25,534 nucleotides of DNA from a virus. The DNA is taken from positions 1 to 25,534 of the IMG/VR virus record IMGVR_UViG_3300042860_000809; one strand, written 5' to 3'. Shown piece after piece: positions 4,483 through 17,173 of the stretch (position 1 is its first letter; each line of letters begins with the position of its first letter). The notes under the pieces are model-generated. The model made no database searches, was not told where the DNA came from, and worked only from the letters and a program-made list of their open reading frames with translations. A program made the translations under genes and the position numbers.

Positions 4483-4618
4483 TTTTCTCTCCTGTTGGTG
4501 CCAGTCGCGGGCAAGAAGGTATAACTGCCCCACTGGCTGACGGGGTTATTCTCAATGCGTGGTACTCACCGTCCAATCCACGTCTGCTCTTACCGCCTAG
4601 GCGGACCCAGCAGCAGGG
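4483..4618 (-). other. 136-base intergenic segment with hairpins
   Basis: No convincing gene. Contains a hairpin at 4521-4549 (ATAA/TTAT and CCCC/GGGG arms), a 12-base palindrome CCGCCTAGGCGG at 4593-4604, and a GACCC/GGGTC stem-loop at 4604-4620 that overlaps the helicase stop codon. A 10-codon ORF (MTLLLGPPRR) overlaps the helicase stop and has an AGGAG ahead of it, but may be chance. Probably an intercistronic processing or stability element. Confidence 0.4.
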
Positions 4619-6175
4619 TCATCTCTGCATCTCCTGTTGAATAAGATCGAGTAGCACGCCCTGCAGTTTCTGCTTTGTTGCAAGGCGCTGGAATATCTTC
4701 TGCTCCAGTGCTGTGCTTTGGATGTGCACTACGTTGGATACGTGACGCTTGCCGATACGTTCGACGCGCCCATTAGCTTGGGTGTACTGCTCGTTGGACG
4801 CTATAGGTCCGTACCAGATAACAGTGGAAGCAGCAGTAAGAGTAAGGCCATGAGCCATAGTAGCAGGGTGAGCGATAAGGACGCGAGGGTCAGTAGCACT
4901 CTGGAAATTGTAGAAGATTGTGTTGCGTTGGCTAGACGAGACAGAGCCATTGACCACTGCGACGGACCAGTGCTTGCCGAGTTCCCGCTCAAGCATTCGT
5001 AGAGTGCCCGTGAGCGGCACAAAAACAATGACCTTGCCTCCTGCTTCTTCGATAACTTCTTTGACTGCGTTGATCCGTGGGGCGCAGTCCAGTTCGATGT
5101 CATTGCCGTCCTCTCCATATGCTACGCCACAGGCGATCTGAATTAGTTTCATAGCCTTGACTGCTTCGTTAACTGCAGTGATCGTGCCGTCAGCTCCACC
5201 AGTCTCAGTGATGAGATGCTTCATCATCTGCTTGTAGTGTTGCGTCTGCTCCGGTGTCAGCTCTACCTCTCTGGTCTGCAGCACAGTGTCGGGTAAGTCA
5301 AAACACTCATCGCGAGTGAAGCGCACCGCTGGCTGCAGAATATGTTTGACTGTCTCCGGACTGTCGGGCTTGGCGGTGTAACGATACGGACCCAACTTCA
5401 TCATCACTTGATCTTTGAACGCCGTGTAGGTCTTGGTGCAGTACGGACTGTCGATCAGTTTGGCCAATGCCCACGCATCTGTCGGTTCGTTGGGTGTTGG
5501 TGTGCCAGTCATCAGCCACAGGCGGATACCTTTCTCGTTGTCCAGCCAGCGGCGGAATGTCTTGAACCTCTTGGTCGTGGGGTTCCGCAGCACTGCCGCT
5601 TCGTCCACAATAATCAGGTCGAACATACCCTTGGCTTCGTTGGCGATGATAGGAAACCCATCGTGGTTGATGACGTAGAAGTCTGCTTCCTGCCTGAGTA
5701 GTTTCTTCCTGCGCTCTGCTGTGCCGTGCAGTACGGTCGCCCTGCGGTGGGTGAAGTTCATGTAGATGGCATCACCCCACACACGTTCCAGTGTGGACAG
5801 CGGAGATATGACGAGCACCTTGCTAACCGCGCCCACTTCTATCAGGTAGTCTGCCGCCCACAGGGCGCTCTGGGTTTTGCCCGTGCCGATCTCATTCAGC
5901 ACAAGCCCCTTGTCATAGATGGTCAGGAAGGCAGCCGTGTCCTGCTGGTGCTGGTATGGCTTGAACCTGCCCGGCCAATCGTAGTGGTAGAGAATGGGCG
6001 AGGGTGCCTCGATCCCTAGCTGGTTGAGCTGGCTCACTTCGCGCACGCCGTGGGGCGTGACGATTACCTCCTGCCCACGCACAGTAATACGTTGTGCTGT
6101 GCTGATTGATGCAAGCACACGCTCGGGATGGTTGAGCTTCAGCGCCAGCGCCTTGGCTTTCGGAATGACTAACAC
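4619..6175 (-). CDS. SNF2/SF2-family DNA helicase
   Basis: A 518-aa superfamily 2 ATPase. Visible motifs are a Q-motif-like YQHQQDTAAF near 75, Walker A EIGTGKT at 95-101, DEAA box at 191-194, motif III (LMTGTPTPN), a C-terminal RecA domain with VVNGSVSSSQRN and LIAHPATMAHGLTL, and motif VI QANGRVERIGK. This is the order of compact phage SNF2-type helicases that remodel or unwind DNA during replication and recombination. The start is GTG 6175, since GGAGG lies 8 bases upstream; it overlaps the VRR-NUC gene by 7 bases. Pairing of VRR-NUC and SNF2 genes is common in phages and suggests joint action on branched DNA. Confidence 0.92.
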   Translation of the reverse strand: MLVIPKAKALALKLNHPERVLASISTAQRITVRGQEVIVTPHGVREVSQLNQLGIEAPSPILYHYDWPGRFKPYQHQQDTAAFLTIYDKGLVLNEIGTGKTQSALWAADYLIEVGAVSKVLVISPLSTLERVWGDAIYMNFTHRRATVLHGTAERRKKLLRQEADFYVINHDGFPIIANEAKGMFDLIIVDEAAVLRNPTTKRFKTFRRWLDNEKGIRLWLMTGTPTPNEPTDAWALAKLIDSPYCTKTYTAFKDQVMMKLGPYRYTAKPDSPETVKHILQPAVRFTRDECFDLPDTVLQTREVELTPEQTQHYKQMMKHLITETGGADGTITAVNEAVKAMKLIQIACGVAYGEDGNDIELDCAPRINAVKEVIEEAGGKVIVFVPLTGTLRMLERELGKHWSVAVVNGSVSSSQRNTIFYNFQSATDPRVLIAHPATMAHGLTLTAASTVIWYGPIASNEQYTQANGRVERIGKRHVSNVVHIQSTALEQKIFQRLATKQKLQGVLLDLIQQEMQR

Positions 6176-13779: not shown

Positions 13780-14634
13780 TTACATACGGACAACTTCACC
13801 CCAGTCAGCCTTGTCCGAACCATTCGTCACCCACAACACAGGGTGATCGGGTGCAGGACCAAAGTCATTGCAGTACAGATCGGTCAGAAACACCGTAGCG
13901 ATGGGGTTGATATCCTTCTCGGCCATGTAGCGGAACACCGGGCTGAACGCAGTGCCGCCACCACCACGGGCAGTGATAACCAAGTCCTCATCCCGCTCGA
14001 ACTTATCGTAGTGGCACACAGCGTGGTCGAAGTAGACCACATGCAACCGGGCTGGGATCATATCCTCCCATACGTACCTGATCTCAGCAGCGAACTCCGA
14101 CAGTTCCTTCTCGCCAATGGAACCAGAGCAGTCGATAGCGAACACGATCTCGCCCAGTGCTTCACCGCTAACGGACGGCATGTGGATACCCATCGCAGCC
14201 ATGCGGCGATTGGGACGTGACCACGACCGGGTATCGTTACGCTGCTTCTGCACGAAACGGCGGAGCACATCGCGCCAGTTTACCTTGGGCTGAAGCACTT
14301 GCGTGACGAGACGTTCCATGTTGGCGCTGAGCTTGCCCATCATCTTGGCAGCTTGCGCAGCTTGGGCTACCTTGACCCGCATCTCGGCCTGTTCCTGTGC
14401 CACTTCAGCAGGTGAGCCTTCAGCTTCAACCACGTCATCGCCAGTGCCGGGGATACCGTCACCACCACCATTGCCTTCCGGAGGTTCAGGCAGGATGTCG
14501 TAAATACCGTCAGTGGTGCCCTTGCCAGCGTCATACGTCGCCTTGTTGAGCAGACCACCCTCAATAAATTTACCGATCTTCTCGTCGGTCAGAAGCTGGT
14601 TGATGACGTAATCGCCAGCCATGTTCCACTTCAT
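13780..14634 (-). CDS. VWA domain protein, C-terminal part of a frameshifted CobT/DUF2201-like gene
   Basis: The open frame covers 284 codons from ATG 14634 (in-frame ATGs exist upstream to 14736 but encode non-family Ser-rich sequence). It starts KWNMAGDYVINQLL, a DUF2201 landmark that normally follows the peptidase-like HE motif. A Gly/Pro/Asp-rich linker follows, then a VWA-like domain with a complete MIDAS: DCSGS at 168-172, Thr of GGGGTAF at 228, Asp in LTDLY at 252. The partner N-terminal domain lies in a different frame at 14570-14848. Such proteins work with MoxR ATPases, and the MoxR gene is upstream here. No ribosome site precedes ATG 14634, so expression as drawn is uncertain. Confidence 0.7.
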   Translation of the reverse strand: MKWNMAGDYVINQLLTDEKIGKFIEGGLLNKATYDAGKGTTDGIYDILPEPPEGNGGGDGIPGTGDDVVEAEGSPAEVAQEQAEMRVKVAQAAQAAKMMGKLSANMERLVTQVLQPKVNWRDVLRRFVQKQRNDTRSWSRPNRRMAAMGIHMPSVSGEALGEIVFAIDCSGSIGEKELSEFAAEIRYVWEDMIPARLHVVYFDHAVCHYDKFERDEDLVITARGGGGTAFSPVFRYMAEKDINPIATVFLTDLYCNDFGPAPDHPVLWVTNGSDKADWGEVVRM

Positions 14635-14848
14635 GTGCCATGAGGAACTTGAGCTGCTCATCTTCCAGTTCCTCGCAGAACTTGGGGTTGAAGTCGATCC
14701 ACTTGCCATTGGTTGCAGCCGTGGGGAAGCGATCACTCACACGGATTTCCATGTTGAGCGCCAGTGTGCCGATGAACGGCTGTTCGAGAACGAGTGCAGT
14801 CCGGGCTTTTGCCAGACGCTTGTCGAGCGGCAGTGTGCTATGTTTCAT
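14570..14848 (-). CDS. DUF2201/metallopeptidase-like N-terminal fragment of the split VWA gene
   Basis: 92 codons from ATG 14848 (AGGAG 8 bases upstream, MKHSTLPLDKRLAKARTALV). The sequence FIGTLALNMEIRVSDRF, then WIDFNPKFCEELEDEQLKFL and MAHEVEH, matches the N-terminal putative peptidase part of VWA proteins. After AHEVEH the frame degenerates (GWRLRHQPASDRREDR) and stops, while the +1 frame continues the family sequence. The usual segment between the HE motif and WN-A-DY-IN is missing, which points to a deletion with frameshift. The HExxH pattern is kept, partly perhaps by accident. Confidence 0.65.
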   Translation of the reverse strand: MKHSTLPLDKRLAKARTALVLEQPFIGTLALNMEIRVSDRFPTAATNGKWIDFNPKFCEELEDEQLKFLMAHEVEHGWRLRHQPASDRREDR

Positions 14849-14862
14849 CTGTTTCTCTCCTG

Positions 14863-15711
14863 TCAATTGCCCATGAACACGGCCATGCGGTCCATGATCT
14901 CTTTTGCTTTGGATGCAGTATCCCGGCGCAGATCGGGGTCATTACGCAGTGCATCGGGGTGGTAACTAACCAGCTTCTGCTCGACTTCACGCCGCATGGT
15001 TTCCAGTTCCGGATCATCTGCGAAGTTAAGCCGGGGCAGCAATGCACACAACTCACGTGCATTCTCCAGCATTGTGTCACGGAACACAGCACTGGGATTG
15101 GCCAGACGCTCCTCAATATGTTTCACCTTGTCGAACAGACGCTGCCAAACGTCTTTCATTGCGGAAGCACTTGCTTCCTGCACCCTACGCTCAACATCTT
15201 GCTGGATACGGGACAGCTCATCGCTGGCAATGCTCACACGGAAATCATTGTTCGGTACTGGGAACACAGCGAGGTCCATCTTGAACTTGGTCGAGATGTT
15301 ATCGGGATGCGGGTAATCGCCAGCATCGAACAGGGAACCCAGTGAACGCTTGGCATCGTCAATGTAGCTGGCATAGTTCATCGTAAACACATTGGTCAGC
15401 CACTGCCATTCACCCTTCTTCTTGCGGAAGTTGGTCATGAACTCCAAGTAGTTGGCAGTGGGCAGCAACTGTGTGCCTTCGATGCCCCACGGCAGCGTGT
15501 TCTCGTAGAACTCAGTACGTATGCTATTGGCCTTCCTGTGTACCAGATCGAGCTGGTCGTTCATCGGCAGCAGTGACTTGTTGTAGCGTCCCACCACGGC
15601 ATTGACGTTGTGGGTATCAGCCACTTCCTTGGTGGCACGTTTGTCATACTTGCGCGCAGTCCACTGCGATATGTTGAGCTGCACAAGCAGCGCACGGTCA
15701 TTGAGGTTCAT
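14863..15711 (-). CDS. DUF3150-like protein of the MoxR-VWA module
   Basis: A 282-aa soluble protein with AACAGGAGAAGTGGA before ATG 15711. The opening (LLVQLNISQWTARKYDKRAT...NKSLLP) and the long helical C-terminal part (SRIQQDVERRVQEASASAMK, then KVKHIEERLANPSAVFRDTM, ELCALLPRLNF) resemble the DUF3150 family, which sits between MoxR ATPase and VWA genes in many phages. That is the order seen here. Likely a partner or substrate adaptor of the AAA+ machine. No enzymatic motif seen. Confidence 0.7.
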   Translation of the reverse strand: MNLNDRALLVQLNISQWTARKYDKRATKEVADTHNVNAVVGRYNKSLLPMNDQLDLVHRKANSIRTEFYENTLPWGIEGTQLLPTANYLEFMTNFRKKKGEWQWLTNVFTMNYASYIDDAKRSLGSLFDAGDYPHPDNISTKFKMDLAVFPVPNNDFRVSIASDELSRIQQDVERRVQEASASAMKDVWQRLFDKVKHIEERLANPSAVFRDTMLENARELCALLPRLNFADDPELETMRREVEQKLVSYHPDALRNDPDLRRDTASKAKEIMDRMAVFMGN

Positions 15712-15733: not shown

Positions 15734-15937
15734 TTAAACCCAACCCATCACACGGGCATAGGCCAGTGCTTTCTTGTAAACATCCTTATGGTAGATTTGC
15801 ACCCAATGCTGATAGGCGTAGTAACCCTCCGCATCGTTGTCATCCACCGTATCCGCCCATTCCTTGTAGATACGTTCTGCAAACGTATCGCCATGTGTCT
15901 GGCGAATTGCTTTCCCTATGCTCCAAAACGGGCTCAT
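15734..15937 (-). CDS. Hypothetical protein, 67 aa, translated from a ribozyme-embedded ribosome site
   Basis: Starts MSPFWSIGKAIRQTHGDTFA at ATG 15937 and is rich in aromatic residues (YYAYQHWVQIYHKDVYKKAL). An in-frame upstream extension to 16003 would run through the ribozyme and is rejected. The only ribosome site, GAGGU 4 bases before the ATG, consists of core and stem II bases of the hammerhead ribozyme at 15941-15996. Function unknown; it lies between the MoxR and DUF3150 genes. Confidence 0.65.
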   Translation of the reverse strand: MSPFWSIGKAIRQTHGDTFAERIYKEWADTVDDNDAEGYYAYQHWVQIYHKDVYKKALAYARVMGWV

Positions 15938-15940
15938 CGT

Positions 15941-15996
15941 GACCTCATCAGTGCCAGCCTTACTGGCAGACGGGGGATTGCTCCCCCGTTTCGGTC
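15941..15996 (-). ncRNA. Type II hammerhead ribozyme (copy 2)
   Basis: On the leftward RNA, in order: stem II 3' strand GACC (15996-15993); GAA (15992-15990); stem III of 7 bp (ACGGGGG/CCCCCGU, 15989-15970) closed by a 6-base loop; C17 at 15969 of a GUC triplet; stem I of 6 bp (UGCCAG/CUGGCA, 15968-15952) with a 5-base loop; the invariant CUGAUGA (15951-15945); and stem II 5' strand GGUC (15944-15941). Every core base matches the hammerhead consensus, permuted as type II (stem II open). Predicted self-cleavage lies between 15969 and 15968, 31 bases before the ATG of the next gene. Confidence 0.93.
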
Positions 15997-15999
15997 TCA

Positions 16000-16034
16000 C
16001 CACGCGATAGCGGGTACTGCCACGCGATAGCGGG
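16000..16034. repeat. Two 15-bp direct repeats beside the ribozyme
   Basis: CCACGCGATAGCGGG occurs at 16000-16014 and 16020-16034, 20 bases apart. On the leftward strand they fall inside a 13-codon ORF (ATG 16038, stop 15999-15997) whose stop abuts the ribozyme. No ribosome site is seen for that ORF, so the repeats may be a protein or RNA binding element instead. Confidence 0.6.
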
Positions 16035-16042
16035 GCATGTTA

Positions 16043-17089
16043 TTAAAACAGCACATCCTGATGGGCTACTGCCCACTTCGCAAACGCTGCCGTATTGGCC
16101 AGAGTGCTGTCACGCCGTGCTGCCATGCTTATTGCCAGCACACTGAACTCAGGGGGCATACGTTCCACGTACTGGCAAACCCGTTCGAAGTTGGCGTCAG
16201 TGGCACGGTGAGCCAGCGATCCTGCCAGTGCATACAGTGTGCCCGGTTCCTTGGGCACTTCCGCCGTCATGGGGTTAAGCAGGATAGCGTCAGGGTTAGG
16301 CAGTTTCCGCCAGATGCGCAGGTATCCAGTGAACTCTGCAGCAGGGCCTTCACCCACGGCACCTGTGAAGCACTCATATTCGGCCTCACTGGGCACCAGT
16401 CCGATGATATCTGACACACCCTCGACCCATGCACGGGGTGACGGGTTAACGTCCCTGTTGGCATCAAAAGCGTGCAGCATGTCCGGCTTGAACCGCATGA
16501 ACGAAACAACTTCAGGGCACACCTCGTGATCCAGTGCCCATGTGGTCCAGTCGTCAAGGTGTGTCTCGAACTCGATAACAGTCTCACGATTGCGCAGATG
16601 GCTGAGCACCTTGTTGGCACCAGCACGGTCCTTCTGCCTGTTACCAGTGGAGATAACCTGCCAACCGTCCTTCATCCTGACACCATGGAGGTTCCTTGCC
16701 TGACAGATGTTTGCCAGTACCTTCTGCAGGTCAGCACCGCACTGATTGCGGTCATCGAAGCACAGTATGCCGTTCTCGGGGATATCAGTCCGATCCGCTG
16801 CAGGGAACCAATCCGGCACCTTGTAGCCGAACGATGAACCACCCAAGCTGAGATCAGGGATACCGAAATCCTCCACCAGCATCGTAGGTAGATGCTTCTC
16901 GACATAGCCGAACCTGTCGTTGAACACCTCCACAATGCCCACGTGGTGACGTGTCGTGCCACCTGCCAGCTCACTGGCCACTTCGCGGATCAGGGTGGTC
17001 TTACCACCACCGGGTGCACCCTCCACGGCAATGGTGCGCTTTACCGGGAACAGGGACTTGATGGTATTCTTAAGCAGTGTGGGTCGCAT
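16043..17089 (-). CDS. MoxR-type AAA+ ATPase
   Basis: A 348-aa single-domain AAA+ protein. Walker A is GAPGGGKT at 24-31. A Walker B-like ILCFDDRNQCGADLQKVL and sensor 1-like VISTGNRQKDRAGANKVL follow, then an arginine-finger/lid region (LRNRETVIEFETHLDDWTTW) and NPSPRAWVEGVSDI, as in phage and bacterial MoxR proteins. These ATPases act as chaperones with VWA partners; both the VWA and DUF3150 genes lie downstream. ATG 17089 has AAGGA 11 bases upstream, a loose spacing. The 5' leader begins with a hammerhead ribozyme and the 3' side meets a second one. Confidence 0.87.
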   Translation of the reverse strand: MRPTLLKNTIKSLFPVKRTIAVEGAPGGGKTTLIREVASELAGGTTRHHVGIVEVFNDRFGYVEKHLPTMLVEDFGIPDLSLGGSSFGYKVPDWFPAADRTDIPENGILCFDDRNQCGADLQKVLANICQARNLHGVRMKDGWQVISTGNRQKDRAGANKVLSHLRNRETVIEFETHLDDWTTWALDHEVCPEVVSFMRFKPDMLHAFDANRDVNPSPRAWVEGVSDIIGLVPSEAEYECFTGAVGEGPAAEFTGYLRIWRKLPNPDAILLNPMTAEVPKEPGTLYALAGSLAHRATDANFERVCQYVERMPPEFSVLAISMAARRDSTLANTAAFAKWAVAHQDVLF

Positions 17090-17119: not shown

Positions 17120-17173
17120 GGTCTCATCAGTGCTGGCGATACCAGCAGACGGGGTTAGAACCCCGTTTCGACC
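17120..17173 (-). ncRNA. Type II hammerhead ribozyme (copy 1)
   Basis: Leftward RNA reads: stem II 3' strand GGUC (17173-17170); GAA (17169-17167); stem III of 6 bp (ACGGGG/CCCCGU, 17166-17149) with a UUCUAA loop; C17 at 17148; stem I of 6 bp (UGCUGG/CCAGCA, 17147-17131) with loop UAUCG; CUGAUGA (17130-17124); stem II 5' strand GACC (17123-17120). All invariant hammerhead bases are present. Predicted cleavage is between 17148 and 17147, 58 bases upstream of the MoxR start. Its first base is the last base of the preceding gene's stop codon. Confidence 0.93.

Follow-up and report, generated by a model that had tools for sequence, protein, structure and literature searches.

A phage type II hammerhead ribozyme whose core bases appear to double as the Shine-Dalgarno sequence of the following gene

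A ribozyme and a ribosome site may, in phages, be built from the same bases, with a Shine-Dalgarno sequence (SD) constructed by means of the only core position that is not fixed by catalysis. In the 25,534-nucleotide stretch of viral DNA that was analysed here (IMG/VR record IMGVR_UViG_3300042860_000809, the whole of which is referred to as the window), a complete type II hammerhead is found immediately before a gene encoding a 67-aa protein. That core bases of this ribozyme double as the SD of that next gene is well supported, as judged from sequence. Comparison with other viral hammerheads supports as well such ribozyme-SD overlap being a recurring arrangement across phages, with G at core position 7 (G7) as its signature, i.e., the case seen in the window does not appear to be unique. 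Structure, overlap, conservation of that overlap at its site and the link, seen repeatedly, between G7 and a nearby start codon are all displayed by the sequences themselves. Natural hammerheads might in this way gain a concrete and indeed testable role in phage gene expression.

A hammerhead at the start of a 67-aa gene

The source phage is tailed, with a terminase, a family A DNA polymerase and an SNF2 helicase encoded in the window. Its minus strand carries, in this order, genes for a 348-aa P-loop ATPase (16043..17089; PHROG 1297 'ATPase', E 5e-60), for the 67-aa protein (15734..15937) and, 3' of the latter and in the same direction, for a 282-aa protein (14863..15711, as taken from the list of open reading frames, with its own SD, AGGAG). 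The ATPase has tblastn matches to many phage MoxR-like ATPases, and its gene lies between two type II hammerheads, here called ribozymes A (17120..17173) and B (15941..15996), both on the minus strand as well. The 67-aa gene has no family match in Pfam or PHROGs, and neither a nucleotide search of isolated phages with the locus nor a protein search with the 67-aa gene gave a match. In one relative (L010), a start region homologous to that of the 282-aa gene directly follows the ATPase. Elsewhere on the minus strand of the window there is an intergenic Proteo-phage-1 RNA (4535-4619; RF03044, 61.5 bits) as well as a VWA/metallopeptidase-like gene (DUF2201; 13780-14866) that is split over two frames, one of them with an HEVEH motif (14866-14570) and the other constituting the VWA part (14736-13780), a split that likely represents a frameshift or sequencing error.

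It is ribozyme B that overlaps the ribosome site, and the coordinates given for it in the first-pass annotation are exact to the base. Read 5' to 3', ribozyme B runs from stem II to stem III, cleavage site, stem I, core strand and then stem II again, that is, with stems I and III closed by loops and with stem II open. The 5' strand of stem II (GACC, 15996-15993) pairs over 4 bp with the 3' strand (GGUC, 15944-15941). Next to the 5' strand is GAAA (15992-15989), of which G12-A13-A14 make up 15992-15990, and then stem III (15989-15970), which has 8 bp, including A15.1-U16.1, and the loop GCAA. Beside stem III is the NUH triplet, GUC (15971-15969), with cleavage predicted between C 15969 and U 15968 as based on the C17 position of the hammerhead consensus. 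Stem I (15968-15952) consists of 6-7 bp and leads into the core strand, CUGAUGA (15945..15951, minus strand), in which U7 is 15947, G8 is 15946 and A9 is 15945. All of the invariant bases of the CUGANGA plus GAAA core are present. The downstream mRNA would have 15968 as its 5' end, which is the position that had been proposed upon first reading.

This fold also is the predicted minimum-energy structure (-28.7 kcal/mol, z -4.2), with none of 200 shuffles folding as well. The match to Rfam family RF02276 is full-length and yet scores 31.2 bits (E 0.002) versus a gathering score of 37 bits, the latter a curated threshold rather than a structural feature, and because of this lower score a default Rfam scan misses the hammerhead. 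Ribozyme A, with stem II GGUC/GACC, similarly is a full-length match to RF02276 that scores below 37 (31.3 bits, E 0.002); it folds as expected, with predicted cleavage between 17148 and 17147, and it precedes the ATPase gene, which has its own SD, AAGGA, further downstream. A pseudoknot between loop I and the 3' tail, which is common but not universal in type II hammerheads, was not seen in ribozyme B, nothing in ACGAUGAGCCCG being, by inspection, complementary to loop I (UAAGG).

The SD in question, GAGGU (15942..15946, minus strand), takes in two core bases, G8 and A9, together with three bases from stem II, the first ones of its 3' strand, and has a predicted pairing with the anti-SD tail of -6.8 kcal/mol. 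Four bases (CACG) separate it from the ATG or, as counted from the end of stem II, there is a spacer, ACG (15940-15938), and then the start codon (15937-15935). GAGGU is the sole SD of the 67-aa gene, made of just these core and stem bases, as originally claimed. Two relatives (L002 and L003) are one base shorter between stem II and ATG, as a consequence of which the frame upstream of the ATG meets TGA TGA and so is closed nine bases before the start. The three contigs whose ATPases are nearly identical all lack an alternative start up to 78 bases downstream of the ATG. Orthologues of the 67-aa protein furthermore have the same start, at 84-93% identity in L002 and L003 and at 32-47% identity in L006-L008. 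In-frame stops, lack of an alternative and orthologue starts together make the start at 15937 well supported, and therefore the overlap as well. A different start or SD, for which the first-pass annotation had allowed, was not found, stops and orthologues fixing the start. It follows from the shared bases that ribosome and ribozyme should exclude each other.

The hammerhead upstream of the ATPase is kept in nine of 11 relatives (L001-L009). A second hammerhead is seen at the same site as ribozyme B in L001-L004, with GAGGU kept in L001-L003. In L004 this second hammerhead has different stem III and stem I sequences, a G instead of U7, and, at the same site, the SD AGGAGGU (predicted 16S-tail pairing, -12.9 kcal/mol); the gene behind it encodes 80 aa and is weakly similar to the 67-aa protein. 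L005 possesses a further hammerhead copy at another place, reading CUGAGGAGGUC AU AUG, with a 50-aa frame. Over nine sequences, 100% of 138 pair cells are standard-paired versus 77% in shuffles, and there are 31 double changes versus 7.6 in shuffles, with 10 of 16 pairs showing such changes. Conservation of the stems among relatives is, going by these counts, more than chance. Between the ATPase stop and the second hammerhead the window has two tandem copies of CCCGCTATCGCGTGG (16000-16034, minus strand, 20-bp period), a repeat that is present in four copies in L002.

The hammerhead shape might instead be kept for purposes other than cutting, i.e., as a structured leader (a 5' hairpin, or a means of SD presentation) or as an attenuator. 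An Rfam score below cut-off and an activity that is a prediction from sequence are in keeping with such a role, as is the finding that 4 of 18 consensus-fitting hammerheads were inactive in vitro (Perreault et al., PMC3088659). Selection for a leader hairpin alone, however, does not explain an invariant core and a C17 that are kept while the stems compensate, and we regard a non-cutting element as very improbable. Ribozyme B, by contrast with such an element, presumably is active in self-cleavage.

At the place of the second hammerhead, four relatives display a different structure (L005 5069-5145; L006 5150-5225; L007 5070-5142; L008 5067-5138). This includes a conserved, perfect 10-bp hairpin, GUGGUGGGGC-UAUA-GCCCCACCAC, and a second helix in which CUCCU is paired with AGGAG, the SD of the next gene, which in L006-L008 is the orthologue of the 67-aa gene. 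An Rfam search of this structure in L007 gave no family, its matches being either to the hammerhead that precedes the ATPase or due to chance. As L005-L008 hide the SD in another hairpin, it would seem that hiding of the 67-aa gene's SD persists without the ribozyme.

Core position 7 and the distance to the start codon

Position 7 is the one free base of the hammerhead core, and a G there turns CUGA-N-GA into GAGGAG as read across core and stem II. IMG/VR hammerheads with stem II GACC/GGUC and with stem II GGUC/GACC were fetched while ignoring the start codon, with at least 120 stretches of each. The G7 set takes in every viral hammerhead that has G7 and either of the two stem II types, again with the ATG ignored, and was extended, for one stem II type with G7, to bacterial genomes. 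The survey also took in other hammerheads on the fetched loci, and starts were called by a simple script. It covers mainly stem II GGUC/GACC, with G7 pattern matches of the GACC/GGUC type numbering four, two of them chance. That overlap recurs, and with a signature, goes beyond what had been noticed in the window to begin with.

There are 31 distinct G7 hammerheads with good stems, and 26 of the 31 have, within 45 nt, a frame that begins with ATG and has 40 codons or more. For 23 of these 26 the ATG is located 4-11 nt after A9. Most hammerheads, among the matches listed, are 17-40 nt upstream of the ATG and a minority are at 4-12 nt, and it is within this minority that nearly all G7 hammerheads fall. 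Approximately ten of the G7 contigs constitute one loosely, distantly related group, which makes for fewer independent events. Chance pattern matches in bacterial genomes, i.e., ones without stems (Brevibacterium and others), serve as negative controls; with stems required, only L329 and L347 are left there, both with a close ATG, and L347 matches L290.

The association can be counted in various ways. Taking any ATG 4-12 nt after the core, a close start is seen for 26 of 32 IMG/VR hammerheads with G7 versus 20 of 299 with other bases, among the matches listed. Taking instead the longest ATG-headed reading frame, blind to any SD, the numbers, also among the matches listed, are 21 of 27 versus 6 of 259 (Fisher 2e-21). 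They become 21 of 24 versus 4 of 189 among the matches listed if each contig is given one vote, and 12 of 14 versus 0 of 88 (P 7e-14; among the matches listed) if contigs that share DNA are merged. Close-start G7 hammerheads have an SD of at least 5 nt inside core and stem II in 23 of 23 cases, and none have one outside; distant-start hammerheads have their own SD between stem II and start in 235 of 260 cases, among the matches listed. The proteins encoded downstream of G7 ribozymes are unrelated, one homologous pair excepted. Three phages (L180, L209 and L270) each combine a G7 ribozyme near its gene with a ribozyme that has U or C at position 7 and a distant start. In the GACC orientation, the predicted energy of pairing to the 16S tail is -2.7 kcal/mol without G7 and -8.8 kcal/mol with it.

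Chance overlap, with the gene starting elsewhere or the SD-like bases going unused, can be argued from GAGGU being short, from the core supplying GA by necessity, and from the same 20 of 299 listed matches that have an ATG at 4-12 nt without G7. It hardly merits belief, however, as the start is fixed by in-frame stops and orthologues, as there is no other SD, and as the G7 association holds across unrelated phages. The simplest account of the G7 overlap would be selection for both functions in the same bases. G7 ribozymes, that is, still look constrained as ribozymes in that they keep varied, compensated stems (with C17 in 31 of 31); an A is located 5' of stem II in 23 of 23, and loop I has its usual length of 5 nt in 21 of 23. 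As an observation on the type II hammerheads listed from both stem II scans, A is directly 5' of stem II in 216 of 216, and loop I nearly always is 5 nt long and starts with U, mostly as UNNNG; invariant A and 5-nt loop I look as though they make a tertiary contact, one distinct from the loop I pseudoknot in the literature.

The case seen in the window is a weaker form, with U7 and GAGGU, and is of the smaller GACC/GGUC subset. Beyond L001-L003 this subset includes, among the matches listed, L258, L259 and L262 as likely counterparts with U or C at position 7, plus L004 and L005 with G7. Stem II orientation (GGUC as the 3' strand, giving GAGGU) was rejected as a class marker, close ATGs being as common with the mirror-image GACC; as many of those close ATGs are false starts and several others are G7, the marker is position 7 rather than orientation. 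Also set aside as an overlap, here one with C at position 7, was L113, for which, upon inspection, a start 23 nt away, preceded by an SD of its own, is the better one; the counts given above still include it. Likewise rejected were the best matches from a short-query search of isolated phages, those in Escherichia phage P88 and relatives, which share the stem III hairpin only and have no CUGANGA core there. A 75-kb phage record (L319, IMGVR_UViG_3300049458_000012) possesses at least nine type II hammerheads in approximately 8 kb, including several ribozymes with U7 that are 10-13 nt before an ATG and without a recognisable SD. These the G7/SD account does not explain, and close spacing thus does not always equate with an SD in the core. 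For finding further candidates there is a cheap search signature, which is CUGAGGAG with AUG 4-11 nt after the core.

Cleavage and access to the Shine-Dalgarno sequence

We consider it probable, if far from securely so, that ribozyme B is a processing ribozyme with a built-in ribosome site, the SD being partly held while the RNA is uncut and then freed by cleavage. What we infer in this reading is that the ribozyme is catalytic, that its 5' piece is released and that it is mainly the cleaved RNA that is translated. Ribozyme B would be located between two genes that are transcribed together, and its 3' edge would contain the ribosome-binding site for the second of them; folding would be possible once the 3' strand of stem II leaves the RNA polymerase. 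In the uncut fold the SD bases would be located in core and stem II, with the transcript, given the type II layout, entering and leaving via stem II. Upon cleavage (15969/15968), the upstream mRNA would end in the stem III hairpin and the downstream mRNA would start, with a 5'-OH, at stem I. Stem II then would be a 4-bp duplex between two molecules, from which the 5' piece should come off; the predicted Kd for binding of the released piece is ~2 mM with the 4 bp, or 0.2 mM with flanking bases. GAGGU would at that point be single-stranded, four bases before the AUG. Cleavage, that is, would separate the ATPase message from the 67-aa message and leave the latter capped by a 5' hairpin, with its SD exposed. 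With a start codon nearby, selection may have used the free position 7, as G, for a strong SD (GAGGAG or AGGAGGU) while leaving the invariant core untouched.

Opening the window's SD is predicted to cost 3.1 kcal/mol uncut versus 1.3 kcal/mol after cleavage, and over 31 loci the median goes from 2.5 to 1.4 kcal/mol upon cleavage, with the SD more open in 21 of 31, though these energies are of secondary structure only, leaving out the tertiary core, and the predicted average gain is modest. That tertiary core should hold the SD bases more firmly when uncut. Since opening is cheaper after cleavage and since the tertiary core is left out of the energies, cleavage-assisted exposure of the SD is favoured over cleavage that is blocked by ribosomes. 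The latter is the direction that the first-pass annotation had proposed, with 30S subunits on GAGGU blocking core and stem II such that translation protects the transcript, and indeed the same five bases cannot serve ribosome and ribozyme at once. The ribozyme, however, is wholly upstream of the AUG and, going by the order of synthesis, should be able to fold before the mRNA that a 30S would cover has been made. We view such competition as improbable.

Modelled energetics do not alone settle between cleavage-assisted exposure and its alternatives. From a different perspective, the overlap could be passive, the SD having been accommodated in the edge of an ordinary mRNA-processing ribozyme as a result of phage genome compactness, with cut and uncut RNA translated alike and without coupling. 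With a stem II of only 4 bp, SD opening would cost ~2.5 kcal/mol even in uncut RNA, which is little for a 30S, and most hammerheads in these phages seem not to require coupling, their SD being separate and their start codon 17-40 nt distant. Those same far-start hammerheads nevertheless show that space is available, and the hiding of the next gene's SD by another hairpin in L005-L008 suggests a use for holding the SD. Passive overlap we consider unlikely, albeit not strongly so. Returning to an SD that is freed by cleavage, the same double use before unrelated genes in many phages suggests that cutting and translation are linked. It is possible, as a more tentative extension, that these ribozymes represent a natural class of cleavage-licensed ribosome-binding sites, tuned via position 7, with translation occurring only from self-cleaved mRNA. 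From the overlap it can also be predicted at which single bases catalysis and translation would be separable.

Comparison with known systems

Natural ribozymes that are coupled to expression include glmS and the c-di-GMP-dependent group I intron of Clostridioides difficile. In both, ribozyme action changes downstream expression, with the intron altering a ribosome-binding site. Unlike the hammerheads considered here, for which no ligand domain is evident, both depend on a ligand and belong to other classes of ribozyme.

A 2011 paper (Perreault et al., PMC3088659) described type II hammerheads from both bacteria and phages. Those are like the present ones in their permuted topology with open stem II, in core and GUC site, in being found in phage genomes, and in often being present several per genome. 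They are unlike them in that no SD overlap was reported, the words Shine-Dalgarno and ribosome being absent from that paper, and in that their commonest tertiary contact, the pseudoknot of loop I with the 3' tail, is not seen here. From the same paper, HHphage, of haloviruses HF1 and HF2, is a variant hammerhead that precedes a phage helicase gene, 13 nt before its start codon, with a mapped transcript 5' end within 3 nt of the cleavage site. It thus resembles ribozyme B in being shortly upstream of the start of a phage gene but differs in its variant core, in its archaeal host, and in no core SD having been described. Hammerheads have been associated as well with Mu-like phages (PMC10085705).

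In the open-access papers that were searched we found neither a natural hammerhead core serving as an SD nor the G7 signature, and the initial statement that no description of this arrangement was known agrees with that literature, within which engineered, SD-hiding hammerheads do exist. With engineered twister switches in E. coli, self-cleavage frees the SD and turns translation on, by up to ~100-fold (PMC5052635), and an engineered hammerhead with a sequestered SD, also in E. coli, is cited there as ref. 13. As is predicted for ribozyme B, the SD of these switches is held in the ribozyme and freed by self-cleavage; unlike ribozyme B, they are man-made. In the twister constructs, moreover, the SD is in a stem with an anti-SD strand and not in the catalytic core, whereas here the arrangement is natural and it is core bases that are in the SD. 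Phage hammerheads of this kind may, that is, be a natural counterpart to the engineered switches.
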